Assembly (NCBI RefSeq): GCF_014202505.1
Contig: NZ_JACHGW010000002.1
Coordinates: 992,001-1,056,000 of the forward strand
DNA from: Armatimonas rosea
Lineage (GTDB): Bacteria; Armatimonadota; Armatimonadia; Armatimonadales; Armatimonadaceae
DNA length: 64,000 bases
Direction: 5' to 3'
In this document: piece by piece, positions 19,585-46,753 of the stretch
Layout: every line of letters starts with the position of its first letter
Numbering within the stretch: the first letter of the stretch is position 1
Made by a program: the position numbers and the translations under genes
Notes under the pieces: model-generated
Told to the model about the DNA's origin: nothing
What the model saw: the letters and a program-made list of their open reading frames with translations, nothing else
Database searches by the model: none

Positions 19585-19585
19585 G

Positions 19586-27156: not shown

Positions 27157-27176
27157 GATCAGGTGTCCTTTCTGTG

Positions 27177-27587: not shown

Positions 27588-27599
27588 GATATTTTCTCC

Positions 27600-28142
27600 T
27601 TATCGATAGCGGGTGGCATAGTCAGAATCGTAGTCATCGTCGGCCAAAAGAATCCGATCCATCCCATAGCCCCCGCTACCGTAGCTTCCATAGGTGCTCC
27701 TCCTCAAGTTGGCTGGAACGGTCAAGGCAGAAGCACTGCCCCATTTCAGACGGCGGAACCACTCGTCACAGGTGCTCTTGGGAAGATTGGGGTTGCGCTT
27801 AATTACCAGCCTGAGCTGGACATCGGAGGGGAGACTGCTTGGCAACGGAGGACTGTCGGGGGAGGGGCCGCTGGAGCCGCGCCCCTCCTGGAGAATGACA
27901 TAGGCGTACTCACGCACCAGAGTGTTTCCCCGGTAGAACTGGAGGTGGATCGAGGAGATGATGTCATTGAGTGCTAGAAGGGATAGGTCTACAATCGTGT
28001 CGTCTAGGTTGAACGACGGGTTGATGCTTCTCCCCCGAGCAAACTGAGCTATGGTCGCTATCTCCCGCCCCATGTTCGCTATGACTGAGCGGACGTCTGA
28101 GGCAGTAATATTGCGCACCGTGACCTGTGTAGCAGAAGGCAT
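27600..28142 (-). CDS. Bacterial HORMA-domain protein (bacHORMA family 1-like)
   Basis: The 180-residue protein starts at 28142 behind GAAAGGAAA. The layout fits bacterial HORMA proteins: a first helix with DVRSVIANMGREIATIAQ, a DDTIVDLSLLA helix, strands IHLQFYRGNTLV and EYAYVILQEG, a strand VQLRLVIKRN, then the late LKWGSAS and a glycine/tyrosine-rich seat-belt segment ending GYGMDR. In CBASS such proteins bind peptides and activate cGAS-like enzymes, and TRIP13 disassembles them. A TRIP13-like ATPase lies on the same operon, but no nucleotidyltransferase is in the window. Family assignment is by pattern only. Confidence 0.65.
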   Translation of the reverse strand: MPSATQVTVRNITASDVRSVIANMGREIATIAQFARGRSINPSFNLDDTIVDLSLLALNDIISSIHLQFYRGNTLVREYAYVILQEGRGSSGPSPDSPPLPSSLPSDVQLRLVIKRNPNLPKSTCDEWFRRLKWGSASALTVPANLRRSTYGSYGSGGYGMDRILLADDDYDSDYATRYR

Positions 28143-28285
28143 GCTGATGTTTCCTTTCAACAGTTACCGGAGCGGTTTCCCCGCTCCTTACCGGGGCCAT
28201 TACCCCGGTGATTGTCCGTAGGATAGGGGGAGGGGTTTCAACGCTACCAGCAACCCGAGGAGGAAAAATTCAACGCTCACTCAAA

Positions 28286-31261: not shown

Positions 31262-32189
31262 TTTTCCCACCCCGGCAACCTTCTCAGGACACGAGACGTT
31301 TACTTTCCGTTACCCTTGGCTCAAAAAAGGCGTAGATGGTGTTAGGGCGGACTCGGCGATTTTTCAGCGTGATGAGGCAATTGTCAAGCTGGGAGTCGGG
31401 AAGAATATGGTGACCTCGATCCGGCACTGGTGCCTGGCGACGGGAATGATCCAGGAGAAAAAGCCTGACAAGGAGCGGCGGCGTATGCTGGAGCGTTCGG
31501 AGCTGGGAACCCGCCTTCTTTCTGATAATGGCTGGGATGCTTATCTAGAGCGTGAGGCTACCCTCTGGCTACTTCACTGGCAACTTGTGACGAATCCGAA
31601 CCGAGCTACTACGTGGCATGGGGCATTTCATCTGTTTAACGAGCCGGAATTTACCCGTAAGAGTTTGGCGAATTTTCTGATGCGTTTGGCTGAGGAGAAG
31701 AACTGGGGGCGGGTGTCGCCGGGAACAGTGGAGAGCGATGTGGCGTGTTTCATCCGAACCTACGTGCCAGTGAAACGGGGCGTGACCTCGACCCAAGAAG
31801 ACACGCTAGACTGCCCGCTGACAGAGCTGGCGCTGCTCCAGATGATTCCTGGCGACAAAGACGAAGACCATCGTTATCGGTTTCAGACACGCCCCAAGCG
31901 CGGCTTGTCGCCTGCGATCTTTGCCTACGCGCTGGCGAGCTTCTGGGAGCAGCACTACCCGAACCAGGGCACGTTGAGCCTGCGGGAGATTTTGCACGGC
32001 GCGGGAAGTCCTGGCCGGGCGTTCCGGCTCGACGAGCAGAGCGTCTTGAACTATCTTGATGCGCTATCTGAGGCGACGGGTGGGGCACTGGGATTTGAAG
32101 ACACGGCGCTGATTCGTCAGGCGGTGCGAGTGCGGACGGTTCATCCGTTGGAGATTTTGGAGAGGTTCTATGTCAAAGCCGCTGTCTGA
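31254..32189 (+). CDS. DUF4007 protein, associated with Dnd-type islands
   Basis: The 311-residue protein starts at 31254, overlapping the regulator stop. It begins FSGHETFTFRYPWLKKG, then RDEAIVKLGVGKNMVTSIRHWC, then a long helical region with LWLLHWQLVTN and TWHGAFHLFN. This pattern defines DUF4007, a family recurrent beside phosphorothioation-type genes and of unknown activity. The first domain looks like a winged helix, so it may bind DNA. It overlaps the ATPase gene by 20 bases. Confidence 0.82.
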   Translation: MSDFPTPATFSGHETFTFRYPWLKKGVDGVRADSAIFQRDEAIVKLGVGKNMVTSIRHWCLATGMIQEKKPDKERRRMLERSELGTRLLSDNGWDAYLEREATLWLLHWQLVTNPNRATTWHGAFHLFNEPEFTRKSLANFLMRLAEEKNWGRVSPGTVESDVACFIRTYVPVKRGVTSTQEDTLDCPLTELALLQMIPGDKDEDHRYRFQTRPKRGLSPAIFAYALASFWEQHYPNQGTLSLREILHGAGSPGRAFRLDEQSVLNYLDALSEATGGALGFEDTALIRQAVRVRTVHPLEILERFYVKAAV

Positions 32190-35100
32190 GTTAGTTGTTT
32201 TACGACGGCGGTTCTTGCGGTCAGTGAGTTTGGAGCGGGATGCACGAAGCCGCACGGGGCTAGATGGCTACATTCCAACCGCCACCGCGCTGACGGCTCG
32301 CGCTCGCATCGAGGCCGGGCTGGCCGACCCGTCGTCACGTGCCGTGAGTATCACAGGAGCCTACGGCACCGGAAAATCGGCGTTCGCGCTCTACCTAGTG
32401 CATCAGCTTTGTCTTGCGCCGCACGGAGAAAAGTCTGAAGGGTTATTACCGGTTCTGGTGACGGGCGGACGGGAACCGCTGATTCCGGCACTCTATCGTG
32501 CCTTGGAAGCCGCTGTGTCCGGTCAGCCTTCGCTGGAGGCCCCATCACTCACTGCGCGGGAACTGGCCGAGCAGTTTGGTAGTAAGGCAAAGGAAGCAAA
32601 AAAGCGAATTCCGGGTTGTCAGGGGCTTCTGGTGGTCGTGGACGAGCTCGGGAAGTTTCTGGAGTTCGCAGCAGATCACCCGAATGAGAGTGACCCATTG
32701 GCTTTGCAGGAGCTTGCCGAGCTTGCCACCCGCTCCGAAGTGCCGATTCTCGTTGTCACAGTTCTACATCAAGCGTTCGATGAGTACGCCCAGTCGCTCG
32801 GCACGGTTCGACGGGCAGAGTGGCAGAAGGTGCAGGGGCGCTTCCTTGATATTCCGTTCGGGGATGGTGCTGAAGAGACTGTCCGACTTATCGGGGAAGC
32901 CTTTGAAGGCGAGGTTCCGAAAGCCAAGCCTCGTGCGAAGCGCCAGGTGAAAGCGGCTCGTGCGCTCAATATCGTACCGCGCTCATTGGACACTGACGAC
33001 GAGGCTACAGCCGTTTTCCTTGGGGCGAGTGCGCTTCACCCGCTTACCCTGCTGGCGCTCCCTCATGTCTTTAAGCGGTTTGGTCAGAGCGAGCGGACGC
33101 TCTTTTCTTTTCTCAACTCCGACGAGCCACAGGGGTTCGGCGCGTTTCTGCGAAATCATGGCCCCGAAGCGCAGTTCCGGCTCGATGCGGTCTACGACTA
33201 CGTTTTCGCGACGCTGGCTTCTACTATTTACTCGATGCCAGGTTACAGTAAGCTCTGGAGTCAGATTCAGGAAGCTGTCTCTCGTTGCGAAGGACGCGGC
33301 GATCTCCTTGAAGCGCGAATCGTCAAGACAGTCGGGGTTCTGCATCTTCTGGGCGATTCAGCTAGGCTCCCCGCCTCTGCTGGTGTGATTGCTTTTGCCC
33401 TTGAGGAGATCGCTTCTGTTGACGAAGTGACGGCGGCGCTTGAGCGGCTGACTCGTGCCACCATCCTGACTTTCCGGGTGTTCAAGAATGCCTACCTGCC
33501 CTACGAAGGGAGCGATATTGATGTAGACGAGCGCTTGGGGGTCGCACGAGCGGCGCTCGGCAACATCGCTTCTCCCGCATCGGTCGTCGCCAAACGGATC
33601 GCGCTCTCTCCGGTGATCGCGCGGCGGCATTCCTATGTGTACGGAGTCCTTCGCTTCTTCGAGATGCAGCTCTGCACGCCCGAGGAGCTGTCGAAAGCAA
33701 TTACGAAGGAACCTGCTCACGCTGACGGCAAGCTCGTGCTTTGCTTGGCGACTGAGAAAGCCCAGCAAGAGACTAGTGTTGCGCTGGCACAGTCTCTGAC
33801 CACCGAGCGTCCGCATGTGGTCGTGGCGGCGTGCCTGGTCGGCGAGACGCTGAACGAGGCGGCCCTAGCGGTCGAGGCGCTGGCTTGGGTTCAGGACAAT
33901 ACACCGGAGCTGAGTCAGGATTCCATCGCGAAACGCGAAGTCGCCGAGCGCCACCGTGAGGCTATGCAGGCGCTTGAAGCGCACTGGGAAGGGCTGCTCA
34001 CGCCTGAGTCGTCCACCGTTTTTGTGTGGGTGGGCGAGCCACGTACAGGCGACCTTCAGCCGCTGCTCTCGAATGCTTTTGATGCTGCGTTCCACCTCTC
34101 GCCGATCATTCGCAACGAGCTGCTCAACCGTCGTAATCTTTCGTCCACAGCAGCGGCGGCGCGGCGCAATCTGATCGAGGCAATGATTGTGCGGAGCGAT
34201 CAGGAGAACCTTGGGATTACAGGCTTTCCTGCGGAGCGGATGATGTACGATACGCTCCTGAAAGCTACTGGGCTTCACGGCTTACACAGAGCGAGCGGTG
34301 AGTACGACTTTCTGACGACCAAGCCAACAGACCTAACTATCCGTCCGACGTTGAAGGCCATCGAAGACTATTTGCTCGGTGGTGATCTGACTCCGAAACC
34401 GGTGATAGGGCTTTACTCTCTTCTCCAGAAACGGCCTTACGGATTGACGGAGGGAGTTGCCCCGCTCCTTATGATTCTGGCGTTGCTTCGCTGGGAAGAT
34501 GAGATCCTGCTCTACCGAGCGAGCGAGTTGATTCCTCAGTTTGATGCCCCCACAGCAGAATGGCTTCTACGTCGCCCTCAGGACTACACCGTTTTGGGAA
34601 TTCGGATGAGCGGTGAACGTCAGGCAGTAGTCCAGCGCTTCGCCAGAACGCTTCTTCGGCCCAAAGAAGGTCATACCCTGGTGAACATCACCCGCCGTCT
34701 GTACGGGTGGTATCGTCGCCTGCCCCACTACACACGGGTGACATTGCGACTGAGTGCGAGAGCAAAAGCTTTGCGTGAGAACTTCAAGGAGGCGAAAAAC
34801 CCCGAACAGCTCTTCTTTGTCGAGATGCCTCGAAGTCTCGGAGTACGACCTTTCACGGCGAGTTCCGATGATGAGAACGTCGAGACGTTTTTTGCAGCCT
34901 GGGGCGAGGTTAATACTGAAATCACGGGAGCCTATGATGCGTTGCTGAAGCGACTGGAAAAAAACCTTCTGGATGCGTTTGAGGAGTCCGAGGTAGACGA
35001 TGTTCGTCAGCGGGCACGGGCACTGGAGGGGCGTGTTCTGGAGCGCCGACTGATTGGGTTCGTTACAAGGTTGTCGGAGCCGTCTTTGGAGGGAAACGCT

Positions 35101-35493
35101 TGGATTGAGTCGGTGGCTTCGGCGGTTGTGGAGCGCGACCCTGAACTTTGGGGAGACGATGAGGAGACGATCTTCTATCAGAATTTGCCGCAGCTTCTCT
35201 CCGGTTTCCATGATGCCGAGGACATGGCCTACTCGATGGATCAGGCACAGCGTGATGGTGACGATGAAGAGCGCGTCGCCTTACGAATCTCTGTGGCTGA
35301 AATGGGTAAAGTGGAGACTCCCGCCCGTGTGCTTTTGTTGACGCGCCACAAGTCTGGTGAGGCGGAACAAGCCGTCGCGCAGATTCGTGAGCAAGCAAAG
35401 GATGTTCTGAGTAAACTCCAGCCGAAGGTACGCGCCGCTGCGGTGGCGTATCTTATGCGTGAGCTACTACAGGAGACAGAGGTAAGCAAATGA
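32170..35493 (+). CDS. Large P-loop ATPase of the modification island
   Basis: The 1107-residue protein has Walker A GAYGTGKS at residues 63-70, preceded by RAVSITG, and Walker B LLVVVDELGK at about 153-162. It then has VTVLHQAFDEYAQ and EWQKVQGRFLDIPF, a pattern also seen in the large ATPases of BREX-like and Dnd-like islands. The remainder is helical with a second region near residue 700 (ETYDFLTTKP-like and PTAEWLLRRP). No SMC-type coiled coil or zinc hook was seen, so it is not a canonical DndD. It couples to the DUF4007 and PAPS-reductase genes by overlaps of 20 and 4 bases. Confidence 0.75.
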   Translation: MSKPLSELVVLRRRFLRSVSLERDARSRTGLDGYIPTATALTARARIEAGLADPSSRAVSITGAYGTGKSAFALYLVHQLCLAPHGEKSEGLLPVLVTGGREPLIPALYRALEAAVSGQPSLEAPSLTARELAEQFGSKAKEAKKRIPGCQGLLVVVDELGKFLEFAADHPNESDPLALQELAELATRSEVPILVVTVLHQAFDEYAQSLGTVRRAEWQKVQGRFLDIPFGDGAEETVRLIGEAFEGEVPKAKPRAKRQVKAARALNIVPRSLDTDDEATAVFLGASALHPLTLLALPHVFKRFGQSERTLFSFLNSDEPQGFGAFLRNHGPEAQFRLDAVYDYVFATLASTIYSMPGYSKLWSQIQEAVSRCEGRGDLLEARIVKTVGVLHLLGDSARLPASAGVIAFALEEIASVDEVTAALERLTRATILTFRVFKNAYLPYEGSDIDVDERLGVARAALGNIASPASVVAKRIALSPVIARRHSYVYGVLRFFEMQLCTPEELSKAITKEPAHADGKLVLCLATEKAQQETSVALAQSLTTERPHVVVAACLVGETLNEAALAVEALAWVQDNTPELSQDSIAKREVAERHREAMQALEAHWEGLLTPESSTVFVWVGEPRTGDLQPLLSNAFDAAFHLSPIIRNELLNRRNLSSTAAAARRNLIEAMIVRSDQENLGITGFPAERMMYDTLLKATGLHGLHRASGEYDFLTTKPTDLTIRPTLKAIEDYLLGGDLTPKPVIGLYSLLQKRPYGLTEGVAPLLMILALLRWEDEILLYRASELIPQFDAPTAEWLLRRPQDYTVLGIRMSGERQAVVQRFARTLLRPKEGHTLVNITRRLYGWYRRLPHYTRVTLRLSARAKALRENFKEAKNPEQLFFVEMPRSLGVRPFTASSDDENVETFFAAWGEVNTEITGAYDALLKRLEKNLLDAFEESEVDDVRQRARALEGRVLERRLIGFVTRLSEPSLEGNAWIESVASAVVERDPELWGDDEETIFYQNLPQLLSGFHDAEDMAYSMDQAQRDGDDEERVALRISVAEMGKVETPARVLLLTRHKSGEAEQAVAQIREQAKDVLSKLQPKVRAAAVAYLMRELLQETEVSK

Positions 35494-36371
35494 CGGAGGA
35501 TGAGAATACAGTACACCTGCTTGGTATTTCCGGGGGCAAGGATAGCGCCGCTCTCGCGGTCTACATGCGGGATCGTGTGCCGCAGATGCAGTATTTCTTC
35601 TGCGATACAGGCGAGGAACTTCCAGAGACCTATGAATATCTGGCGATGCTCGAAACCTATCTTGGCAAGCCTATCAAGCGTCTGAACCCAGATAGACAGT
35701 TCAAACACTATTTGGCAATCTACTCTCCTGGTGGTGATCTTGATCCTGATACGGGACTTCCACCTGCACCTTATTTACCCTCACAGCGAATGCGTTGGTG
35801 TACTGCCCAACTCAAACTCAAGCCTTTTGAAAAATGGGTGGATGAGGAGTTTTCAGGGAAGCGTATCATGTCCTATGTAGCGATTCGTGCCGACGAGGAC
35901 CGAGATGGCTATATCTCCCACAAAACCAATATCCAGGCGATCTACCCTTTCAAGGAAGCAGGGTTGGGTAAGGCCGATGTATACCAGATTCTTGAAGAGC
36001 GCGGTGTGGGCGTTCCACGTTACTATGAATGGCGGACACGAAGCGGGTGCTACTTCTGCTTTTTCCAGCGTAAGGCAGAGTGGATAGGTCTGAAAGAGCG
36101 TCACCCCGACCTTTTTGAGCGGGCCAAGCAATATGAGAAGGTGATTCGCGATCCCGAGACGGGCGAAGTAATCAAGCGTTACTCCTGGGCTCAGGGGGAG
36201 ACCCTTGAAGAGATGGAGCAGCCTGAACGTATTATTGAGATCAAACAGAGGCATGAGAAGTATCTGGAAGAGGAAAAGCGCCGTAACAAATCTACGCGCC
36301 TTCTGGACATTTTTGAAGATGCCCTTGATGACGAAGACGATACACTGCCCTGCCAAATCTGCAACTTGTGA
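35490..36371 (+). CDS. DndC-like PAPS-reductase-family enzyme
   Basis: The 293-residue protein starts with the N-type ATP-pyrophosphatase loop SGGKDS at residues 14-19 and has the PAPS-reductase pattern FFCDTGEELPETYEYL. Cysteines occur at RWCTAQLK, in CYFC (residues of about 189-192), and in CQICNL at the very end, enough to hold an iron-sulfur cluster as in DndC. DndC activates the DNA backbone for sulfur insertion. Here the canonical DndA, DndD and DndE partners are missing from the window, so the chemistry could be phosphorothioation or something related. The ATGA overlap with the upstream ATPase gene indicates coupling. Confidence 0.85.
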   Translation: MTEDENTVHLLGISGGKDSAALAVYMRDRVPQMQYFFCDTGEELPETYEYLAMLETYLGKPIKRLNPDRQFKHYLAIYSPGGDLDPDTGLPPAPYLPSQRMRWCTAQLKLKPFEKWVDEEFSGKRIMSYVAIRADEDRDGYISHKTNIQAIYPFKEAGLGKADVYQILEERGVGVPRYYEWRTRSGCYFCFFQRKAEWIGLKERHPDLFERAKQYEKVIRDPETGEVIKRYSWAQGETLEEMEQPERIIEIKQRHEKYLEEEKRRNKSTRLLDIFEDALDDEDDTLPCQICNL

Positions 36372-36381
36372 CCTTCCATAA

Positions 36382-36996
36382 ATGGCGATTACTTCCGACG
36401 AATTCAAACGAATCCTGATTAAGTTCCGGGACGAGGAGCCGCATTCTTTTTACTTTGAGCCGCGTTTGGATCGGTTGATGGATTCTGAGGAGTGTCAGGG
36501 GTTTTCTGCGGTGCTTCATGAGTCAGGGAGGCGGTGGGAAAGACGACCCGCCACAGCAACACTGGCGACTATGTTGCCCGACGAGCGCGGCATCTACATG
36601 TTTGTTTGGTGCCCTGCTCTTTCGCTTTTGTGTGATGAAGCCTCCGATTCCAAGACTCCCCGTGCCGAGCGCTTTCGCTATGTTCTCTACGTCGGAAAGG
36701 CTGGAGTCGAGGAAGGTAAAACTGACACGTTAAAAGAACGCTTCAAGAGCGGCTACGCAAGATACATAGGCAACGATCCAAGCCCACTTTGGACGGAGAA
36801 GGTTCCCGATGACCCGAAGCGTGATCAACTTCTCTCTCGTTATCTCTCACTTCGTCCGTTGGAATTTTGGTACATAATCTTGAAAGATATGAAGGAAATC
36901 CACACATTCGAGAAGAAACTGATCAAAACGCTGAACCCGCCACTCAACAAGCAGCATGGTCGGCGACTGAGAATCGGGAAACCCGAACCGGCATGA
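36382..36996 (+). CDS. GIY-YIG nuclease-like protein (first copy)
   Basis: The 204-residue protein shows the GIY-YIG core: ERGIYMFVW for the first strand, YVLYVGKAG for the second, a helix TLKERFKSGYARY, then LEFWYI and EKKLIKTLNPPLNKQ as the glutamate-bearing and last segments. GIY-YIG enzymes cut DNA with a single metal, and some accompany modification systems as the restriction arm. It lies directly before the DGQHR gene. A second pair in the same order lies at 44699-42978, divergent in sequence but the same in plan. Confidence 0.75.
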   Translation: MAITSDEFKRILIKFRDEEPHSFYFEPRLDRLMDSEECQGFSAVLHESGRRWERRPATATLATMLPDERGIYMFVWCPALSLLCDEASDSKTPRAERFRYVLYVGKAGVEEGKTDTLKERFKSGYARYIGNDPSPLWTEKVPDDPKRDQLLSRYLSLRPLEFWYIILKDMKEIHTFEKKLIKTLNPPLNKQHGRRLRIGKPEPA

Positions 36997-37006
36997 CAAA
37001 CGTAGA

Positions 37007-38296
37007 ATGAGTAACAAGACCTTCATACCAGCTTTTCAGTGTAACGTCGGGGACTGGAAATACTACATCTGCACGATGAAATATGGCGAGGTCGCCCGCC
37101 AGGTCCAGTTTGCCTTCGAGCTGGGCAAGAATGATGAGCTCGGGCAGCTCATTCAGCGGGGCATCACCAGCCGAACCAAAGAGATCACGGACTACATTCT
37201 TACCTCAGAGCATCGCTTTCTGGGTGGCTTGGTCATTGCGGCCTGGGGCGGAGAACCGACCTATACACCACTCTCAATTGATGATCCAGACGGTTTTCTC
37301 AAAGGTCTCGACCGAGGTTTCGGCGTACTGACCTTCGACGGAACCCAGGCGTACTTTGTGCTCGACGGTCAACACCGCCTGAAAGCCATCAAGGACGCTT
37401 GCCGCAAGAACCCAGACATCGGGAAAGAGGACATCTGTGTTCTGATCGTCACGCACTACGACACGACGGATGGTCGGGTTCGGACGCGCCGCCTCTTCTC
37501 CAACATCAACCGTAACGCCAAGCAAACCGCTATCGCCGAGAACATCGCGCTTGACGAAGACGATGCGCTTGCGATCCTGACACGTCGCCTGCTGGAAGAG
37601 CATCTCTTTCTCAGCGAGCCCCGCCGCGTCCGGGTGATTCTCTCTACCACCGACGACGGGGAGGTCAAGCTCGCACCGGGTAGCGTACCTCAGTCCGACC
37701 CCAAGGCGCTCACTACCTTTACCGTGCTCTATGATCTGCTCAAGTCCCTGGCCTACGACCAGCCCAAAGAGATTCAGGATCGAGCACACCGCCCCGACGA
37801 CGATCTTCTGGAAGCCGCCTACTCCGTTTTCGTACAGCGCTTGGACGATCTCTTCAAGCACTGCGGCGACATCCAGACGAAGCTAGAAGCAGCGACGAAC
37901 GCGAAAGACATCCGCGCTCCACGCAACCAGGAAGCCAACGGCCACCCTTTCATGCGCCCTGTGGTACAGAAAGCCGTCGCTCGTGCCGTCTCAGAGATCG
38001 TCACCGAGGAGCTGCTCACTTGGCCCGAGGTCATGACGCGCTTAGAGGCTCTGGAATGGAGTATGGGTGCTGCTCCGTGGATCGCCGTCTTCAGTCCTGA
38101 TAGCGGCAAGATGCTGACGGGCAAAGACAACACTGAACTGCTCGTGCGCCTGCTTAGGGTTCATCTCGCCCCCGAGTCCAAGAGCGACATTCAGCGTGCC
38201 CGAAAGAGCTACAAAGATATTCGCGGGGGTATGTACCCCATTTCTGAAGAAGACTTGACTAAGAACTTAGTTACGGGCGGCAAGCCCGAAATGTAA
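37007..38296 (+). CDS. DGQHR-domain protein, DndB-like (first copy)
   Basis: The 429-residue protein contains VLDGQHRLKAI near residue 120, the hallmark of the DGQHR family that includes DndB. It also has RRLFSNINRNAKQT and ALDEDDALAILTRRLLEE, common to that family. DndB acts as a regulator of Dnd gene expression and of modification in known systems. Here it follows the GIY-YIG gene by 10 bases and ends 14 bases before the membrane protein gene. Roughly collinear with the 412-residue protein at 42978. Confidence 0.85.
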   Translation: MSNKTFIPAFQCNVGDWKYYICTMKYGEVARQVQFAFELGKNDELGQLIQRGITSRTKEITDYILTSEHRFLGGLVIAAWGGEPTYTPLSIDDPDGFLKGLDRGFGVLTFDGTQAYFVLDGQHRLKAIKDACRKNPDIGKEDICVLIVTHYDTTDGRVRTRRLFSNINRNAKQTAIAENIALDEDDALAILTRRLLEEHLFLSEPRRVRVILSTTDDGEVKLAPGSVPQSDPKALTTFTVLYDLLKSLAYDQPKEIQDRAHRPDDDLLEAAYSVFVQRLDDLFKHCGDIQTKLEAATNAKDIRAPRNQEANGHPFMRPVVQKAVARAVSEIVTEELLTWPEVMTRLEALEWSMGAAPWIAVFSPDSGKMLTGKDNTELLVRLLRVHLAPESKSDIQRARKSYKDIRGGMYPISEEDLTKNLVTGGKPEM

Positions 38297-38310
38297 TAGG
38301 AGAAGAGAAA

Positions 38311-39147
38311 ATGAAGCAACCAAGTAAACCAATGCAATGGGCTAGAAGTGCTATCGAGAATAACCTTACTATTCTTACAATACTTGCAGTCATTATTGGT
38401 GTTGGGCTTCGTTACATTGCTGACCCTCATACATTCTCTAATAATAAAGAAATCATTAAAGAGATTGGTAATTTTATTTTAATTACTTTTGTTGTCGGGT
38501 TCATTTATGAAAATTTTGTAAACTATCGATACAAACACGAATTTATTCATGAAATAGAAAATATACTTAGTAACAAGTTCAATCTGCCGATCTCTAAGGT
38601 ATATTTGCAACGGCCTGAGCTAAATGAAAAGGCCGAGCTGATGAAGCAGGCCACCAAAGAGATTATCGAATTTGGAACGGCACTTCGGACTTTTACAAGC
38701 TACATGAAATCAAACCTCAGCTTTCATACCTCCGACGGGCAGGCAGGGAGATACCGTGACTTGATCGAACAGCGTCTGTCCGAAGGGATAGTCATTCGAT
38801 GCATGGTACTCTCCCCGGAGGTAGCAGCGGTGCTAGAGCCATATGAACCAGGGCTGAAGGCCAAGATAGAAGAGTCACTTACCTATCTCCTGGAGTTCCA
38901 AAAGAGTGTGGAAGGAAAAGGTACTTTTGAGGTGATCCAGTATCGTACTATTCCAAGATATGCAGCGATCTGTATTGATGGTGAGCAGAAAGGTAGCAAG
39001 ATGTTGTTAAGTCCATATGTGCCTAACGTGGAGAATGCTAAGGTTCCAGCATACTTGATCGAAAAAACTAAAGAGGAAACATTGTTTCAAGTATATTGGA
39101 TTAGTATTAAAAATATTATTAAAGATCAAAAAAAGGAAGTCTTATAA
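38311..39147 (+). CDS. Two-helix membrane protein with possible PLD-like C-terminal domain
   Basis: The 278-residue protein has two N-terminal membrane helices (ILTILAVIIGVGLRYIA and NFILITFVVGFIYENFV) and a cytoplasmic region. The latter reads EIIEFGTALRTFTSYM, then LIEQRLSEGIVIRCMVLSP, then AAICIDGEQKGSKMLL. This is like degenerate phospholipase-D-like sensor domains in which HKD motifs are lost. It starts behind AGGAGAAGAG after the DGQHR gene and is AT-rich, unlike it. It is probably an effector or sensor. It could be an unrelated cargo gene. Confidence 0.55.
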   Translation: MKQPSKPMQWARSAIENNLTILTILAVIIGVGLRYIADPHTFSNNKEIIKEIGNFILITFVVGFIYENFVNYRYKHEFIHEIENILSNKFNLPISKVYLQRPELNEKAELMKQATKEIIEFGTALRTFTSYMKSNLSFHTSDGQAGRYRDLIEQRLSEGIVIRCMVLSPEVAAVLEPYEPGLKAKIEESLTYLLEFQKSVEGKGTFEVIQYRTIPRYAAICIDGEQKGSKMLLSPYVPNVENAKVPAYLIEKTKEETLFQVYWISIKNIIKDQKKEVL

Positions 39148-39149
39148 TC

Positions 39150-40163
39150 ATGGCGATGCTTGAAGGGCCTGAACATTCCTCTGTATCTGAGGGTGATGAG
39201 GTTTTTAAATGGATAACTGAGAATATTAACTTCTTGATAGTTACTGCTGCCGATGCCGAAGCAGAAGCATTGTGGCATCCATGGCCGAGTGCTGCTATAG
39301 AAGAGCTTCCAGGTTTTTCAAAGAATTTTTTTTCGGCAGAGCATGGGGTTTTACAACCGTCACTATCTGTTTTGGGTGATGAGAGTCCTAAAATTATATT
39401 ATTAGATATCTCTGGACCTGATTTTTATGTTGGCAGTATAGGCAATGAATGTATGGTCGCACATACACATTTGACATCACAAGGTTCACAAGCACTAGGA
39501 GATACCCTGTCATCAGCAGTGGAGTTGTTTAAGAATTTAAAAATAGTTTATATGTCGGGTATGCTTGGAGGATTCCATTCTATTGAAGGTACTTGCATAG
39601 GTTCCACAATATTATCAGACAATATTTCGGGGAAATATGGACAAAAAATGGGAGATATTGTTATATGTGATTCAGTTTTTGTTCCAGAAAGCAAAAAACC
39701 TATAAAATTTACAAGTAACATTGGGAATAGAATTTTTCAGAAATATTCAACAAATTTTAAAAATGCAGTAAAAACTATAAATATTCATTGTGGCCCAATA
39801 CTTTGTGTTCCTGAAGTTATAAGGGAGCATGAAGAGAGAGAACGGTTAAGAGAAAGATATGGGATCAATAAAGATAAGACACCATTGTCTTTAGGTTTTG
39901 AAATGGAAAGTAAAGCATTGCTTGATATTGAAAAGAATTACGCAGAACAACCACATTTGCCGCAAATATATACAATTTTAGCAAAAAGTATTAGTGATTG
40001 GGGAGTAGGAAAACCTGAAGAAGGAAATGAAGGCAGAAAAGAACATGAGAAAGAAAGAGCTTTTGCTTCTAGATCATCGATACTTTTTTTGATTTATCTT
40101 CTAAGTCAAAAAAATGCATTTAATTTCGTAAAAGATTTTAAAAAAAAAGTAACGATTTTGTAG
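39150..40163 (+). CDS. Nucleoside-phosphorylase-like domain, 5' part of a split STAND protein
   Basis: The 337-residue product is a purine/uridine phosphorylase-like domain: FLIVTAADAEAEAL near the start, YMSGMLGGF for the phosphate-loop region, and GFEMESKALL near residue 249, the E-M-E ribose-binding segment. Such domains appear as N-terminal effectors of NB-ARC proteins and are thought to deplete nucleosides or NAD. The frame ends VTIL and stop just after nine consecutive A. The downstream NB-ARC frame is open right up to this run, so the gene is most likely one protein split by a -1 shift (see the slippery-run entry). Confidence 0.72.
   Translation: MAMLEGPEHSSVSEGDEVFKWITENINFLIVTAADAEAEALWHPWPSAAIEELPGFSKNFFSAEHGVLQPSLSVLGDESPKIILLDISGPDFYVGSIGNECMVAHTHLTSQGSQALGDTLSSAVELFKNLKIVYMSGMLGGFHSIEGTCIGSTILSDNISGKYGQKMGDIVICDSVFVPESKKPIKFTSNIGNRIFQKYSTNFKNAVKTINIHCGPILCVPEVIREHEERERLRERYGINKDKTPLSLGFEMESKALLDIEKNYAEQPHLPQIYTILAKSISDWGVGKPEEGNEGRKEHEKERAFASRSSILFLIYLLSQKNAFNFVKDFKKKVTIL
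40140..40148 (+). other. A9 run: frameshift or slippage site joining the PNP and NB-ARC frames
   Basis: Frame of the PNP-like gene reads TTT AAA AAA AAA GTA and stops at 40161-40163. The NB-ARC frame is -1 relative to it, begins after a TAA at 40139 and stays open through SNDFVASKFRV, then RDNFLGELEIAL and the P-loop. A -1 slip (or one extra A in the transcript) on this run fuses the two. It could be a programmed shift, transcriptional slippage, a true mutation or a sequencing error. Confidence 0.7.
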
Positions 40164-40264
40164 CATCTAAATTCAGAGTTAATCATAGACAAAAATGGTC
40201 GTTTATAAATCGAGATAATTTCCTAGGAGAATTAGAAATAGCTCTAAAGCAAAATGATGTTGCA

Positions 40265-42229
40265 TTGGTTGGTATGGGGGGTATTGGAAAGACGCAGATG
40301 GCTCTCAAACTTTGTGAGGCATCTGCATTGAACTATCCTTTGGGGATAATCTGGCTTCGTGCTGATACTGAAGATAATCTCATTATTGACTTAAATAAAG
40401 CTGCCCATATGGAAGCTGCACGTCCTTTTATTTCAGCATCTATCGTTGAAACAAAAGCATCAGCCCTAAGCTTCTGCGAAGCATTGTCGAAACGTGACGG
40501 ATTTCTTATAGTTTTTGACAATGTTGATTCGTGGGAAACAATTGTCGAGTTCTACAATGTTCTTACTAGAGATAGGACAGACAATAAAGGGGGACGTTTT
40601 CTTATTACAACACGCCTACGCGACATGAATCCTGTAGGTTCGCGCGATCTGAAAAATATAAAAATCAAATATTTAGCAACGTTTAGTACAACATTGGGGG
40701 CTGAACTGATTTTCTTGCGCCGAGGACGGCCTGCTGAGAGTGAGGAGGAGCGTAGAGAAGCTGAGGAATTATCAAGACGATTGGGTGGTTTGCCTCTTGC
40801 GCTAGACCAGGCAGGGGCGTATCTGGCACTTCCGGACACTACGATAGATGAGTATCTAAACGAATATGAGAAGTCAGGTACCAACGGGGGAGCTAATTTA
40901 CGGGATGAGCGGGCACCGGGGCATAATCCGCAGACCGACAATGAGAAATATCTAGAGCATGAGTCGGTTCGTCGGACGTATAAAATTGCTCTGGACTGGC
41001 TGAGGTTGGAGTCCGCGGACTCCGTGACACTACTCAATCTTTGTGCATTTCTTGCACCCGATAACATTCCTGAATTCCTATTTACGGATGATCGTAACAA
41101 GGAGTATTTTGGAAAGACTTATTTTAAGAGTGTCCGACATGCAGCGGTTCGTCTGTCTTTATTAGAACACGACGCAACTGAGAAAACACTTTCGATGCAC
41201 CGCGTAGTGCAGGATGTAGCACGGGATTTGATTGGAGAAAAAGAAGAAAGCATGTGGATAGAACGCGTAGTAGATATTATTCGCGTGGCTTCTGACGATG
41301 AATGGCATGAAAATTGGTGGGAAAAACAGTTGCTTATTCCACACTGGGATTTTTGTACAAGGCATTCGATTCGAAATAATATATTTACATTATCTTCAAT
41401 ATGGATCATGTCTAATTTTTCATTAATGGAAGCATATTTAGAAAATGTAAATGATTCGAAGAATATTGCGAGGATTATAATGAATAAATATAAGCATGAA
41501 GATATTCATTCCATAGAATTATGGAACGTTTTGGGGATGATTTTTAGAATTAATGCAGATTTAGAGGAAAAGGAAGCATGTTTTAGGGAAGCTGAAGCAT
41601 GTTTTAGGGAAGCTTTGAGAATCATGAATAAAAATCAATATGATAATAATTCTCTAAAAATCTCAATATATAATAATTTGGCTGGAATTCTGCGGAATAG
41701 ACCGGATGTTTTAAAAAACGGCATCGTCTTGAAGCCTGAAGTTATAAAAGAATCAGCAGAATTATTTAATAGTGCTATCGAAATAGCAAGAATAGAGCAT
41801 GGAGATGACAGCCCAAATTTAGCTGCACCATATAATAACATGGCAGGATTATACCGGATTCTAAAATCTTATGACGAATCAGAAAAATATTTTAAAAAAT
41901 CAATACAAATATCCATCGAGAAAAATAAAAATCATATATTTGATTTCAATCTAGCTAGTTATTTTAAAAACATTGGATTTTTAATGAAAGAAATAAATAA
42001 TATTAATGAATCTGAAGAATATTACGGAATTAGCTTATGGATATATCTTAATATTGATTCCATAAATCCAAATAATGCAAAAATTGCAAATAATCTTGAG
42101 GATTGGATTGAAATTCGTAAAAAATCTAAATTTAATATAAATTATATTTACGAATATCATCCTTATCGTGTAAAGATTGAGGATTTAATAAATTTAATCA
42201 AAAAGAGATATCCAAATATCAAAATATAA
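40265..42229 (+). CDS. NB-ARC ATPase with TPR repeats, 3' part of the split STAND protein
   Basis: The annotated frame begins at TTG 40265, directly inside the P-loop (VGMGGIGKTQ), which cannot be a natural start. In-frame codons upstream to 40142 supply the normal NB-ARC lead-in (WSFINRDNFLGELEIAL). Walker B is FLIVFDNVD, the sensor is FLITTR, and GLPLALDQAGAYL is the GLPL motif. TPR-like helices fill the last 300 residues, including a 7-residue tandem duplication EACFREA. The expected product with the PNP part is about 1030 residues. It follows the modification island on the same strand. Confidence 0.8.
   Translation: MVGMGGIGKTQMALKLCEASALNYPLGIIWLRADTEDNLIIDLNKAAHMEAARPFISASIVETKASALSFCEALSKRDGFLIVFDNVDSWETIVEFYNVLTRDRTDNKGGRFLITTRLRDMNPVGSRDLKNIKIKYLATFSTTLGAELIFLRRGRPAESEEERREAEELSRRLGGLPLALDQAGAYLALPDTTIDEYLNEYEKSGTNGGANLRDERAPGHNPQTDNEKYLEHESVRRTYKIALDWLRLESADSVTLLNLCAFLAPDNIPEFLFTDDRNKEYFGKTYFKSVRHAAVRLSLLEHDATEKTLSMHRVVQDVARDLIGEKEESMWIERVVDIIRVASDDEWHENWWEKQLLIPHWDFCTRHSIRNNIFTLSSIWIMSNFSLMEAYLENVNDSKNIARIIMNKYKHEDIHSIELWNVLGMIFRINADLEEKEACFREAEACFREALRIMNKNQYDNNSLKISIYNNLAGILRNRPDVLKNGIVLKPEVIKESAELFNSAIEIARIEHGDDSPNLAAPYNNMAGLYRILKSYDESEKYFKKSIQISIEKNKNHIFDFNLASYFKNIGFLMKEINNINESEEYYGISLWIYLNIDSINPNNAKIANNLEDWIEIRKKSKFNINYIYEYHPYRVKIEDLINLIKKRYPNIKI
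41573..41614 (+). repeat. Perfect 21-bp tandem duplication in the TPR region
   Basis: The 21-base unit at 41573-41593 is repeated exactly at 41594-41614 and keeps the frame, duplicating residues EACFREA. It looks like a recent replication-slippage event inside a helical repeat. Confidence 0.85.
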
Positions 42230-42231
42230 TT

Positions 42232-42257
42232 CACCCAGCCAGATACCTGGCTGGGTG
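42232..42257. terminator. Bidirectional terminator-like hairpin
   Basis: CACCCAGCCAG pairs perfectly with CTGGCTGGGTG around ATAC, with AT-rich flank on the left. It lies 2 bases after the stop of the NB-ARC gene and downstream of the convergent secreted-protein gene, so it may end both transcripts. Confidence 0.65.
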
Positions 42258-42311
42258 GAGATCGCCGTAATCCAATTAATGGGTTTTAAACCATTATAGA
42301 TAATCTTATTG

Positions 42312-42803
42312 TTACCGTGGTATTGGAATTGGATAATTATCCTGACTCCACTGCCCACCAGAATTAGCTTTTCCATCACGCACCATTGTTTGTACTAACA
42401 TTTGCGTCGCAGTTCTATCAGTTGTTACATCAAAATCTGCCCTCAGCGCTTTCATGCCTGCATCATATCTTCCTGAAAGAGGTTGAACCCCATCATATTT
42501 TTTAGAATCTTTATTACTATGATAGTAGCAGTGGCAGACGTGCGTTGGGTATTTTGTTGCATATTTCGAAGTTATATCAACACCATTTTCATATGTTCGG
42601 TAGTACACAGAATCAACCTGTCCGTATGTCCCAGCCTTATATCCCACGATTTGAATTCCTGTCCATGGAGTTTGAGCTTTAGCCACCGGACGATGAAGAA
42701 GTATGGTCGGCGCAGCAATCAAAGCCACGAGACCAAGAACACCTATTCCCACCCTGTGAGGTTGGGACAGGCGAGTTTGCAGAGATGTACGAGACAAGTT
42801 CAT
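42312..42803 (-). CDS. Small secreted or membrane-anchored protein
   Basis: The 163-residue protein starts at 42803 (MNLSRTS), behind GGAGGATAA. A hydrophobic segment VGIGVLGLVALIAAPTILL ends with a probable signal cleavage site AKAQ. The mature part has a tyrosine-rich region and CHCYYHSN, and contains no known catalytic motif. It is convergent with the NB-ARC gene. Function is unknown. Confidence 0.5.
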   Translation of the reverse strand: MNLSRTSLQTRLSQPHRVGIGVLGLVALIAAPTILLHRPVAKAQTPWTGIQIVGYKAGTYGQVDSVYYRTYENGVDITSKYATKYPTHVCHCYYHSNKDSKKYDGVQPLSGRYDAGMKALRADFDVTTDRTATQMLVQTMVRDGKANSGGQWSQDNYPIPIPR

Positions 42804-42977
42804 TTTGATTATCCTCCATGTAGAAGGACACTGAATTGAACTAAAAAGTTGCATGCGAAAAGAAATATTTTATGCTGATTTGTTTATTGATTGTTCTTTA
42901 ATATCAATAAAATATTTTTAATATTAAAATATAATAATGAAATCTAACTAAAATTTTCAATTGGAAATATATTATAA

Positions 42978-44216
42978 TTAAGGTTGATAACTGGCAAGTT
43001 CTCGTTCCAGCCAAACCTCTCCGCGCCGCATTGTGGCGAGTTGCCCTCCTGCTTGCTTGAGCATCAGCGCCGTGGCGACGGTCTTGTTTGGAGAGTTCAC
43101 CATCCGGTTCAGCGACGGACTCCAGAGAATCTGGTACCATAACTCATCAGAGAGATTCATCGGAGCTTGAAAGACAGCAGCGACGGCGCCCTCAGTGGAC
43201 AGCCCTTCGTTCTTCCGATAGCGGATCGTGCGGAAGATAATATCCAGACCCACGGGACGGAAGAGAAGATGCCCACCGTCCTTATTTCGATAGGGAGCCG
43301 ACGCGATCTCGACTTCCTGAGCCTCAGCGAACGTGCGAAGCTCGGGACAATGCGCCTTGATCGCTTCCCATAGTTCTACCGCCCGCTCATAGAAAGAATC
43401 CAACTCCTCATCGTTCGGGCGTTGTCTCAGATACGCTGCCCAGCCGCGCGCACTCGTGGGCTTCAGATAGAAATCCAGCGCGTTGTAGAGGGTCTCAACA
43501 GTCGTCAAACTCCTGGTGTCAGACGTGGACAACGAGCGGGTTTTGGCGAGTGAAAGACGGTCTTTGAGAAGCGGGTACTCCTCCATCAACCGTCGAACCG
43601 TGACCGCAATCGCATCGTCTTCATCGAGCGCGATCTTCTCCATCGGGCTGACCGCTTTGGCATACTTGTTCAGGGTCGTGAACAGCCGCCTGGTGCGTTG
43701 TAGCCCCTCCTGTGTTGTCTTGTGGCCGACAAACAGCACTGATACTTCATCTGTTGTGAGGTCAGGTCGCTTTTCCAGAGCCTTCTTGATACCTGCCATG
43801 CGATGCTGGCCATCAATAGCAAAGAGTTTCTCCGTTCCCTCCAGGCGCAGATAGCCAACAATACCCTCGGTGTTCTCCCCAGGCCCCTCGGGAAATTCAC
43901 GGTTGCCGCGCACATCGAGTTCGTACCACTCGGGCGAACCGCCGTACACCCCGATCACAAGTCCATTGAAAAACCGTTCATCGTTGTCTGGCTGGAGCAA
44001 ATAGGCCGCGATTTTCGTAGCATGCCCTTCTTCAATTTCCCGCTGGATCAATTTAGAGAGTGTCTTGCTTTGGTGAGCTCCTGGAATCTCACTTACTCGG
44101 CTCACCCTGTCGCGCAGGTCTCCCAGACGCATACAGGCGATGTAGTACACTCGATCACCCATCTTAGCACGGAGCGCAGGCAGGGTAAGCGCGGACAATT
44201 TTTTTTCTTCAGGCAT
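42978..44216 (-). CDS. DGQHR-domain protein, DndB-like (second copy)
   Basis: The 412-residue protein contains LFAIDGQHRMAGIKKALE near residue 135 and RTRRLFTTLNKYAKAVS, followed by KIALDEDDAIAVTVRRLMEE. These match the first copy at 37007 in order and spacing, but the two have clearly diverged. It follows its GIY-YIG gene by 3 bases on the - strand. It may regulate or guide the modification, or belong to a separate system that shares parts with the main island. Confidence 0.82.
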   Translation of the reverse strand: MPEEKKLSALTLPALRAKMGDRVYYIACMRLGDLRDRVSRVSEIPGAHQSKTLSKLIQREIEEGHATKIAAYLLQPDNDERFFNGLVIGVYGGSPEWYELDVRGNREFPEGPGENTEGIVGYLRLEGTEKLFAIDGQHRMAGIKKALEKRPDLTTDEVSVLFVGHKTTQEGLQRTRRLFTTLNKYAKAVSPMEKIALDEDDAIAVTVRRLMEEYPLLKDRLSLAKTRSLSTSDTRSLTTVETLYNALDFYLKPTSARGWAAYLRQRPNDEELDSFYERAVELWEAIKAHCPELRTFAEAQEVEIASAPYRNKDGGHLLFRPVGLDIIFRTIRYRKNEGLSTEGAVAAVFQAPMNLSDELWYQILWSPSLNRMVNSPNKTVATALMLKQAGGQLATMRRGEVWLERELASYQP

Positions 44217-44219
44217 GTC

Positions 44220-44699
44220 TCAAAAGGCTCCTACGACTGGGCGGAGGGAGGCGGGAAACCGACTCGGACTATTACAAGGCGGAAGGAACGCTTCCATCAA
44301 GTCATCTTCCAGAGTGGTGATGTCGGCTTGCGGCGCTTCTGTGTAGCAGAACCACAGATGCGAGTTGTAAAGGTTCAGCAACCGGAAAATCCTGGGCCGT
44401 CCACTTTCGCGTCGTTCTGTACTTAGATACTCCCCGAAACGCCGCCGAAGATCGGATGCCTGCCCAACGTACATCAAGTAGCTACTAAACGGATGCCCAG
44501 CTACCCCAGAAACTAGAATCAGTGTGTAGACCCCGGAACGATCTGGGATACTTACCTGGTTCCCTGCCTCCAGGCGATATTCTTGCCATCGGCAAGGCAC
44601 CCGATTCCGGTACGCCATCCATTGGCGGGGCCACATACGCATATCGTGAGTATGCTTCTTCAGCTCGTCCTGCTCTTCAATGACATCCTCTACAGCCAT
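44220..44699 (-). CDS. GIY-YIG nuclease-like protein (second copy)
   Basis: The 159-residue protein has RSGVYTLILVSGV for the first strand, YLMYVGQASDLRRRFGEYL for the second strand and helix, HLWFCYTE, and LEDDLMEAFLPPCNSP. The core matches GIY-YIG with the glutamate in LEDDLME. It is shorter than the first copy at 36382 and lacks much of its N-terminal region. It is translated just before the second DGQHR gene. Confidence 0.75.
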   Translation of the reverse strand: MAVEDVIEEQDELKKHTHDMRMWPRQWMAYRNRVPCRWQEYRLEAGNQVSIPDRSGVYTLILVSGVAGHPFSSYLMYVGQASDLRRRFGEYLSTERRESGRPRIFRLLNLYNSHLWFCYTEAPQADITTLEDDLMEAFLPPCNSPSRFPASLRPVVGAF

Positions 44700-44978
44700 A
44701 TCGTCACCATAGAATTCGCTAAAAGGAGGCGATCTCCTTCTCTCGCGACAAACGCATCCGTTACCCTAGCCCCGAGTCCGAACGTTATGCACTCGTCCCA
44801 ACTTCGGGACGACCAAGCGCAGACTGGCTCCCTAGCCCCTGGTGCGACCAACAACACCAAAACCGCTGCCAACCAACCTTGAAAAATCGAAAAAATTAAG
44901 TACATCAATACACAGGTAGTAATTTTTGCATGATTATCGTGGTACCATCTGTTAGCATTTGTTATCCATGGCGGTTGC
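44700..44978. other. Gene-free leader region of the second GIY-YIG/DGQHR pair
   Basis: No convincing gene lies in these 279 bases. They should hold the promoter of the 44699 gene on the - strand. The right half becomes AT-rich and ends at the tRNA fragment. Confidence 0.4.
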
Positions 44979-45022
44979 GACTCTTAATCAGCGGGTCATA
45001 GGTTCGAGTCCTATACAACCCA
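44979..45022 (+). tRNA. 3' half of a tRNA-Lys(CTT) gene, probable attachment-site scar
   Basis: The 44 bases run from the 3' strand of the anticodon stem-loop (CTCTTAA, anticodon CTT at 44983-44985), through TCAGC, variable loop GGGTC and the T arm (ATAGG-TTCGAGT-CCTAT), to the acceptor ACAACCC and A73. No matching 5' acceptor GGGTTGT or D arm is found upstream. Mobile elements that integrate into tRNA genes use exactly this 3' half as att core and leave such a copy at the far end. CCA is not encoded. Confidence 0.7.
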
Positions 45023-45025
45023 TCC

Positions 45026-45070
45026 AAGAGCGGTTCTTATCAGTAACTGGTAAGAACCGCTCTTCGTTTT
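45026..45070 (+). terminator. Terminator after the tRNA-Lys remnant
   Basis: AAGAGCGGTTCTTA and TAAGAACCGCTCTT are 14-base perfect inverted arms around an 11-base loop, followed by CGTTTT. This is the native terminator of the disrupted tRNA gene and therefore marks chromosomal backbone. Confidence 0.85.
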
Positions 45071-45377
45071 GGGGCCTGACACTATTGACAATTGTTGCCT
45101 AAGTGACGGTGACAGTAAATACACTGGCTCAGATTTCCGCCACGACACCGTTCCGCTCCGCTCGCTCTTGGCTTCATTGGTTCCCATAATGCCTCCAAGA
45201 CGAGTTTGGCTTTGAGGGGGCGCTTACTCATGAGGTAGCTCGCGGCCGCCGACATAGCCTTTCCGTGCCTCCCTAAATCTAGAGACTGTCTCCTTTGCCG
45301 TATCGGGCAGGGGCTTCTGCCAGCCGAGCTTGAGCTCGATGACAGGCACGCGTCTGGCTTCCCAGTCACCACAACCT
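45071..45377. other. Stretch without a confident gene
   Basis: The - strand has a 96-codon frame (45082-45372) whose second half includes LKAKLVLEALWEP and CIYCHRHLGNNC, and another frame with RVPVIELKLGWQKPL just upstream of it. Neither gives a convincing full protein. A frameshifted remnant of a small gene is possible. Confidence 0.3.
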
Positions 45378-46625
45378 CTAGGATAAGGATCGTCTCTCAG
45401 ACAGGGGCATGAGGAGGTTCTTGTCCACTTGTAGCCACTGGTCGATCTCGGTGAGGGTGAAGCGGGCCTGAAGGAGGTAGGGGGGCTTGCCCCGACCTCC
45501 GGGATGGTTGGGGTGCTTCGAGCCGGGCTGTACCTCCCAGTGACCATAGCTGATGGCGACAATACAGCCATTGGGGAGCACTTCGAGGCCGGTATAGCCG
45601 CAGTCGCCGATATTGGCGTTGGTGGAGTTGCCGAAGTTACGGTGGAGGCGGATGCGGCAGTAACCCTCCCGGCTCTGCACAAGATCGTCCCAGGTACCCA
45701 CCCAGGCGACCCAGTCACCATGGCTGGGATTGGTGGGGTTGAGAGGGCTATAGTCGCGGAAACAGATGACAAGGCGGCCATCGGGGGCGTATCGCGCTGT
45801 ATGTCGCTCACCGGTCAGGGAGCCGGGGAGCTCGACCGGGTCGGACCACGTCGAGCCACGATCACGGGAGAAGCTAATCATCGCGTTGGTCTTTTTGTTT
45901 TGCGGGCGGAAGAGAAGGGCCATGGACGCCCCATCGGGGGAGACCACGGCACCCGCCTCGCAGAGGCCAGCGGCACGTGCACGCAGGCGCCCTCCCTCAC
46001 TAGCGAAGGGGATCGGTGTGAGCTGAGAGAAACGGCAGTCGAAGCCCCCTGGTGCTGTAGGATCGGCGACAAGCTCTAGCTCAACGGTAAAGTTGTCGAA
46101 GTTGAAGTCGTGGAAGATGCCGCGGAAGCGATCTCGCTGAGCGAGAGGCCAGAGCGAGGCGAGGGCGACAATCGCACCACGAGTGCCTTCCAGCCTCCAT
46201 TGTTTGCGGGGCGACCAGCTATTCCCTTGGTCGTCACTCCACATCCACTCCAGAATCCCTTTCGCTACCTGGCAGGTGACGAGAAGAACGCGCTCACGGC
46301 CACCGGGCAGGGGGAGCTTGTAGAGCGTAGGAACCTCAGGGACGGTCGCTACGTCCACTTCGACGGGGCACCACGTGTTGCCTCCGTTGTGGCTACGGCT
46401 AAGAAGCAGCTTTCCCTGGCCGTGCCCATCCGGGTACGCGGTGAGGAGGGTCTTGCCATCTTGGAAAAGCACGGTGGTCGGCTGTCCGAGATACTGCCCC
46501 TCGCGTCGGGCGACGACGGAGAGCGTCCAAGGAGCGGCAACAGCGAGGTCGAGCATTGGAAGGGAGTAGTCGCGGCGTACGCGGCGCTCCGTTTGTTCTG
46601 TAGAGGACTGTCTGGCTCTCTTCAT
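45378..46625 (-). CDS. Sialidase-fold (BNR/Asp-box) exo-glycosidase-like protein
   Basis: From the start at 46625 the protein is about 415 residues, though 46556 (MLDLAVAA) is also possible. It has at least three Asp-boxes, S-x-D/N-x-G-x-T/S-W: SHNGGNTWCP, SDDQGNSWSP and SRDRGSTWSDP. These mark a six-bladed propeller of the sialidase superfamily. It has no signal peptide. Divergent to the LacI gene, it shares the promoter region. In this pectin locus it probably acts on a neutral or acidic sugar rather than sialic acid. Confidence 0.7.
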   Translation of the reverse strand: MKRARQSSTEQTERRVRRDYSLPMLDLAVAAPWTLSVVARREGQYLGQPTTVLFQDGKTLLTAYPDGHGQGKLLLSRSHNGGNTWCPVEVDVATVPEVPTLYKLPLPGGRERVLLVTCQVAKGILEWMWSDDQGNSWSPRKQWRLEGTRGAIVALASLWPLAQRDRFRGIFHDFNFDNFTVELELVADPTAPGGFDCRFSQLTPIPFASEGGRLRARAAGLCEAGAVVSPDGASMALLFRPQNKKTNAMISFSRDRGSTWSDPVELPGSLTGERHTARYAPDGRLVICFRDYSPLNPTNPSHGDWVAWVGTWDDLVQSREGYCRIRLHRNFGNSTNANIGDCGYTGLEVLPNGCIVAISYGHWEVQPGSKHPNHPGGRGKPPYLLQARFTLTEIDQWLQVDKNLLMPLSERRSLS

Positions 46626-46753
46626 GGAATTAGGGACTTGATGGAGAGAGCGCACTCTCACATCTCCATCGCAACAGGCGTTATACCACCTCTCCCGGCG
46701 AGACGCAGAGCTTGGCGATGTCTTCGCTCACGACCGAACCAATCACCGCTAAC

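Follow-up and report, generated by a model that had tools for sequence, protein, structure and literature searches.

The question raised by this locus is what left half of a tRNA gene at the border between mobile and defence genes and a carbohydrate locus in Armatimonas rosea. The window, meaning the whole stretch of 64,000 nucleotides that was analysed, corresponds to C2:992001-1056000 of the genome of this bacterium (G000), and the fragment lies at C2:1036979-1037022 on the forward strand. It reads GACTCTTAATCAGCGGGTCATAGGTTCGAGTCCTATACAACCCA and is the 3' half of tRNA-Lys(CTT), comprising two anticodon-stem bases, the loop CTCTTAA, the 3' side of the anticodon stem, the T arm, the 3' strand of the acceptor stem and A73. 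The initial annotation had reported such a half without its 5' counterpart, and this was borne out, with the start placed two bases before the anticodon loop; the 5' half is absent at the fragment, and ARAGORN found no tRNA gene in the 64 kb. The flanking open reading frames of at least 150 aa are 44220-44699 and 45224-45811, and the fragment is outside any conserved coding domain. Three features make up the scar:

44979..45022, + strand: 3' half of tRNA-Lys(CTT) to A73, with 42 of 44 bases as in the intact gene
44979..44998, + strand: identical core of 20 bp, from the anticodon stem and loop onward, whose other copy is only in the intact tRNA
45026..45064, + strand: terminator-like hairpin with 18 pairs, a TAA loop and a weak T tract (CGTTTT)

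A terminator of 14 bp had been annotated behind the tRNA half. A hairpin does follow, but it is longer than that and is missing from the list given by a simple terminator scan. It would end the tRNA transcript.

If the fragment was an att site, an intact tRNA-Lys(CTT) gene beside an integrase was predicted elsewhere in the genome, with a core of about 44 bases repeated at the left end of the element. The gene and the integrase were located to the left of the window, on the same strand as the fragment, which lies downstream in the same orientation; the two cores begin 50,435 bp apart.

G000 C2:986515-986587 (L004 11515-11587), + strand: intact tRNA-Lys(CTT), called by ARAGORN
L004 11700-12725, starting 112 bp behind the intact tRNA: tyrosine integrase of 341 aa (PF00589, E 3.9e-18; PHROG integrase, E 1.1e-35)

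A search of the genome with the fragment returned one other true copy (C2:986544-986614, 62/71 bases alike, E 1.9e-18; E 6e-21 in a pairwise comparison of both tRNA copies), and the third row of this search was the hairpin matching itself on the opposite strand. The check for another core copy in the genome, on which the initial annotation had staked its reading, turned one up in the tRNA at C2:986515-986587. The predicted length of the core held in part: the copies agree at 42 of the 44 bases to A73 and at 45/47 to base 45025, but strict identity covers 20 bp. With up to one mismatch allowed, this 20-mer occurs at exactly two places in the 6.33-Mb genome, both on the + strand (reversed control 0), and neither the fragment search nor the 20-mer search found a third half-tRNA there. 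The two differences are C and G in the intact gene and T and A in the orphan, and they pair with each other, so that both copies keep the T stem. With the tRNA copies, the integrase and the unique core in place, the fragment is the end of an integrative element that targets a tRNA gene, is about 50.4 kb long and carries defence genes, and the annotated right boundary of a large element in tRNA-Lys(CTT) stands.

The annotation had also pointed to relatives, in which the same fragment should not occur without an element. The congener G001 has an intact gene next to metK at this tRNA and no second fragment, its only match to the fragment being that gene. metK is on the other side of the tRNA in both G000 and G001, with MetK proteins 93.6% identical, and the metK-side DNA of the two genomes is 83% identical over 1,569 columns, stopping 7 bases beyond the tRNA.

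The change of gene type at 44979-45070, from mobile and defence genes to a carbohydrate locus, is real as judged by the protein content on both sides:

1..44998: in-window part of the ~50.4-kb element, of which the left 5.4 kb (intact tRNA and integrase) lies left of the window
415..2133, - strand: large serine recombinase encoded within the element (PHROG integrase family, E 9.7e-77)
21639..22610, - strand: replication-relaxation (Replic_Relax) protein
22594..24651, - strand: TraG/VirD4-like coupling ATPase, with relatives in other elements of the integrase family
31164..32189, + strand: SspB (DUF4007), defence cargo
32170..35493, + strand: SspC, defence cargo
35490..36371, + strand: SspD, defence cargo
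42978..44216, - strand: DndB-family protein, the last recognised gene before the right end
45378..46661, - strand: BNR-repeat protein, with which the carbohydrate locus begins; no recognised gene lies between it and the scar

Other proteins of the element are an Mrr endonuclease, a Schlafen-type helicase, AAA and WD40 proteins, two NB-ARC/TPR proteins and, in all, two DndB-family proteins; right of the scar, the BNR protein is accompanied by a LacI regulator, a GH127 protein and an alpha-L-rhamnosidase, among others. The G+C content is 51.8% in window positions 1-44978, 64.0% in 45100-64000 and 60.3% left of the tRNA. SspB, SspC and SspD stand in the same order as in the SspBCD phosphorothioation-based defence, here as cargo, and PADLOC recognised no SspA in the 20 proteins submitted to it. 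A search for SspC in four relatives and one virus record gave no match; it had no positive control and is uninformative. Between 31164 and 38296, the Ssp genes are followed by genes for a GIY-YIG protein and a DndB-family protein, the second DndB-family gene being that at 42978-44216.

Although the fragment marks an element boundary, the att-site origin given in the initial annotation needs to be modified, as the half-tRNA looks like the left end of an older element and not like the displaced 3' half of the host with its terminator. The reason lies directly behind the hairpin:

45071..45134, + strand: putative remnant of an integrase promoter and leader, ending where the integrase start codon would stand

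Aligned with the tRNA-Lys element of G006, from its hairpin to its integrase start codon, this stretch has 46 identities, 18 mismatches and one gap in 65 columns, and the alignment stops at CAGAT(G). None of 100,000 shuffles reached the score (shuffle maximum 20.0 vs 25.5). In a scan of 13,910 tiles from the window and four own-genome loci, values above 15.5 were found only at the real left end of the element (28.5) and at the place of 45071-45134 (25.5). When five flanks were compared with nine left ends (45 comparisons, 1000 shuffles each), 0/1000 was obtained twice, for the right flank of the scar against G006 and for the G012 orphan half against L077. The lowest value after that, 6/1000, also occurred twice (G012 against L062 and the control flank G007 against L078); the control flanks G014 and G001 gave nothing below 80/1000, and G007 gave 12/1000 against the left end of G006. 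The values of the G007 control indicate that the method has some background, and the match of the window is well above it. Against the leader of the 50-kb element itself, the right flank of the scar matches weakly (67/1000 shuffles reach the score), and the leader match of 45071-45134 comes from one close relative, G006, which belongs to another genus of the same family.

Since the displaced half precedes what appears to be the promoter and leader of an integrase of the same family, the site would earlier have held an older element of that family. The alignments suggest that the half-tRNA at 44979-45022 is most likely the left end of this older, almost wholly deleted element rather than the original 3' half of the host, and that the boundary is probably a junction between two stacked elements, one of which is nearly gone. 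Taken together, we consider it likely that the fragment is the right junction of a tyrosine-integrase element of about 50.4 kb that was stacked on an older, since deleted element of the same family.

A simpler account would have only one element, with the half-tRNA and hairpin being the displaced 3' half of the host and its native terminator. All the basic signs of a single element are present, and simple scars do exist in the family, as the orphan half in G014 precedes a flank that is not leader-like. We regard this account as rather unlikely here, as the hairpin is followed by 64 bases that match the leader of an integrase and itself resembles the hairpins carried by elements. Its apical sequence is common to the hairpins behind the intact tRNA of G000 and behind the tRNA-Lys of G006, both on the element side, and is absent from the tRNA-Lys flanks of G001 and G007; between the two G000 copies the lower stem differs and the apical sequence is alike.

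The older element might instead persist rightward, with the carbohydrate locus as its cargo, and the gene order right of the scar is indeed unlike that behind the tRNA-Lys of G001. This is improbable, however, because the 64.0% G+C of this region resembles the rest of the genome (62.9-63.6% in L073-L075) and not the element, and because neither a trace of an integrase nor a further half-tRNA was found to the right. An older integrase right of the scar was sought by tblastn of the integrase against the window and with an HMM built from eight integrases of the family, applied to six-frame translations of 45001-64000, L074 and L075 (C2:1050001-1090000); neither search produced a hit below E 1. 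The genome searches with the fragment and the 20-mer found no right att site of an older element. As tblastn and the HMM found no integrase right of the scar, we call the second element of the stacked reading a remnant and not an array. A chance tRNA pseudogene or fragment without any element can practically be dismissed in view of the intact gene, the integrase, the orientation and the 50 kb of lower G+C in which mobility and defence genes lie, even though tRNA fragments are described to have other origins, such as CRISPR acquisition (PMC9897764).

Comparison with other genomes bears on how often this site is used. The fragment search matched 51 of 101 genomes, own included; 24 loci from other genomes (L009-L032) were analysed, and the best matches of the other 26 were left aside. 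ARAGORN found an intact tRNA in 23 of the 24 (tRNA-Asn in four), the exception being G009. Second matches occur in 12 genomes besides G000, and the three inspected are orphan halves in G012 and G014 and an intact tRNA-Lys(TTT) in G087. Five further half-tRNA-Lys loci were found in relatives, one of them with an empty-site counterpart in its genus: G009 and G011, sister species of one genus, are 95% identical over 167 bases from the flank into the anticodon loop, where the identity stops, G011 having the whole tRNA-Lys and G009 only half, and the flank continues at 79%. By this alignment, the two are an occupied and an unoccupied form of the site. In G014, a whole tRNA with an integrase is followed 144.5 kb downstream by an orphan half, the repeat covering 119 columns at 92%. 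The att copies of G014 thus share 119 bp, past the hairpin, with no sign of a second element, so that some likeness beyond the tRNA can stem from a long attP. The halves of G009, G012 and G014 start to match the whole gene at CTCTTAA or one base ahead of it, that of G000 two bases ahead; their common start is the anticodon loop. As far as these comparisons go, the tRNA-Lys gene is a recurrent and stackable integration site.

The G014 element (C1:4158531-4303051; L062 8531-9753, L086 3051) has a related integrase and spans 144.5 kb at tRNA-Lys(CTT) in a one-contig genome from the same taxonomic order, and both it and the 50-kb element have an Mrr-YdjM gene pair and a coupling ATPase. A decayed site is seen in G012 (L059 419-3100): a whole tRNA-Lys is followed by two genes that resemble AbrB and Doc, as judged by eye from their translations, and 2.5 kb further on by an orphan half with a hairpin and a leader-like remnant.

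No colinear empty site with the right flank of G000 was found in the congener G001, because the genes that neighbour the tRNA in G001 lie on C1 in G000. In G001 the tRNA-Lys is followed by GNAT, Lrp and aminotransferase genes, which in G000 sit at C1:344.8-347.0 kb. The comparison of G000 L073 14742-17048 (C1) with G001 L053 4694-6935 indicates a rearrangement with one breakpoint at the tRNA 3' end. The LacI protein of the right flank has relatives of up to 48% identity in the four genomes searched, none of which adjoins tRNA-Lys, and a partial LacI match lies at G006 C93:11064, about 13 kb from the tRNA-Lys of that genome. Among the right-flank proteins, only the pilin-like one at 47904-48686 matched near the tRNA-Lys of a relative (G006), over a 59-residue stretch at 90%.

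PMC4383910 describes, in its account of tRNA-targeted islands, that the attP of tyrosine integrases carries the 3' part of a tRNA, that on recombination the gene is made whole again at one end while its former 3' part ends up at the other, and that the anticodon loop is one named integration sub-site. At the present locus, the attP of the element, consisting of half a tRNA-Lys and the hairpin, would have been recombined by the integrase with the anticodon loop of the tRNA-Lys(CTT) gene already in place. On the left, next to the integrase, the 3' half brought in by the element would have completed a new tRNA, while the half that it replaced would have moved to the right end. This displaced half was probably already borne by an element, as it seems to precede promoter and leader sequence of a further integrase from this family, and of the older element only some 150 bp at the left end would then have remained. 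A repaired site, with the whole tRNA and the right-hand half and hairpin, would be expected to continue into GGGGCCTGACACTATTGA. The strand exchange, the order of arrival and the loss of the older element are what we infer; the two tRNA copies, the integrase, their orientation and spacing, the uniqueness of the core and the likeness of 64 bases to an element left end are observed. By the layout, the changed T-stem pair would have entered with the present element.

A half-tRNA integration scar is a known kind of event, here mapped in a little-studied bacterial group. Islander islands, as outlined in PMC4383910, have a whole tRNA and a displaced 3' fragment at their ends, a tyrosine integrase and a length of 2-200 kb. 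The same is found here, with the whole tRNA and the fragment on one contig, the integrase inside, the fragment downstream on the same strand and 50.4 kb between them. Crossover at the anticodon sub-site and tandem arrays are described there too. Unlike the islands as outlined in that paper, the displaced fragment here seems to be that of a deleted neighbour and not that of the host. Of the features of a tandem array, the half-tRNA, the hairpin and the leader-like 45071-45134 are present and the integrase of a second element was not found; as an Islander tandem, by the description in PMC4383910, needs an integrase in each member, the remnant would count as a single island. The description of integrative mobilizable elements (IMEs) in PMC5704250 has accretion onto decayed elements as frequent. 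In accretion on a CIME, as given there, a new element enters an att site used by a related decayed one, as would be the case here, but the older element here would have lost far more than genes for integration and transfer, as no more than about 150 bp of its left end is recognised. The 50-kb element is like an IME in its site-specific integrase and in its coupling-protein-like ATPase with an adjoining replication-relaxation protein, mobilization being putative; it differs in that no classical relaxase was recognised, nor any conjugation apparatus, among the proteins scanned (a subset of the open reading frames). It is an ordinary tRNA-integrated element with defence cargo, and its right-hand half-tRNA is probably a two-layer scar.

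A literature search on tRNA-integrated islands of Armatimonadetes, judged by titles and opening lines, returned nothing on such elements. The ends of a 50-kb element with defence genes are now known exactly, in a phylum for which few descriptions of mobile elements exist. An erased element may be recognised from a remnant of about 150 bp, in which a half-tRNA is followed by an integrase leader, and island mapping calls for caution, since a displaced tRNA half may not be the original one of the host.

Relatives of the 341-aa integrase were collected if they were at least 32% identical along most of its length; with a truncated copy (L085) added and duplicate records merged, they make up 12 loci. 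Short or broken copies in G006 C12 and C86, G002 and G008 were left out, as were many matches at about 22-33% that resemble ordinary Xer-type recombinases. A whole tRNA stands directly upstream in nine of the 12 loci: tRNA-Lys(CTT) in three (G000, G006 C93 and G014), tRNA-Thr in two (TGT in G006 C114, CGT in L085) and tRNA-Gln(CTG) in four (L077, L078, L082 and L089). In two loci (L079, L080) a 3' half of tRNA-Lys directly precedes an intact integrase, and one (L083, the same as G016 C77) has no tRNA upstream. Eight of nine integrase-relative loci are assigned to Armatimonadetes, Armatimonadaceae or Chthonomonas, and the ninth only to 'bacterium'. The plasmid and phage collections gave 108 and 10 matching records, respectively, all below 60% identity and at 22-27% in the best eight of each; the virus collection gave three matches, one of them 55% identical. 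An anticodon stem of CTG/CAG was considered as a signature of the integrase, being found in 8/9 tRNA targets (TTG/CAA in L089), but such stems are common in tRNAs and it was rejected. Inspection by eye revealed no convincing right-end motif common to the elements.

With integrases 35-61% identical to the 341-aa one and a coupling ATPase in several members, these elements may form a family of their own. We lean, if only slightly, towards the view that the Armatimonadota have such an integrative-element family, which stacks in tRNA-Lys(CTT), cuts the anticodon loops of tRNA-Lys, -Thr and -Gln and leaves halves behind as a layered record. As a Lys-type element brings its own tRNA half and hairpin, each arrival would replace the 3' half and terminator of the host tRNA-Lys. 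If this is true, displaced halves could be read as a layered record of past elements even after their loss.

Several smaller observations were made on these elements. The record with the 55% identical integrase (L090, IMGVR_UViG_3300005286_000518, 44,159 bp) is listed as viral; it starts with this integrase and holds a relative of the coupling ATPase, and it may be an integrative element rather than a virus. Two further relatives of the coupling ATPase (35-38%) in G000, at C9:50701-52347 and C10:57318-59348, perhaps belong to more elements or plasmids. The serine recombinase at 415-2133 (-) possibly marks a second, nested element, and the AAA ATPase at 25819-27156 (-) is close to the PADLOC models TRIP13 and IetA. 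Two stretches inside the 50-kb element, 11385-15560 and 38311-43000, have a G+C content of about 34-40%, and a protein of 1178 aa without a confident family is encoded at 11385-14921.
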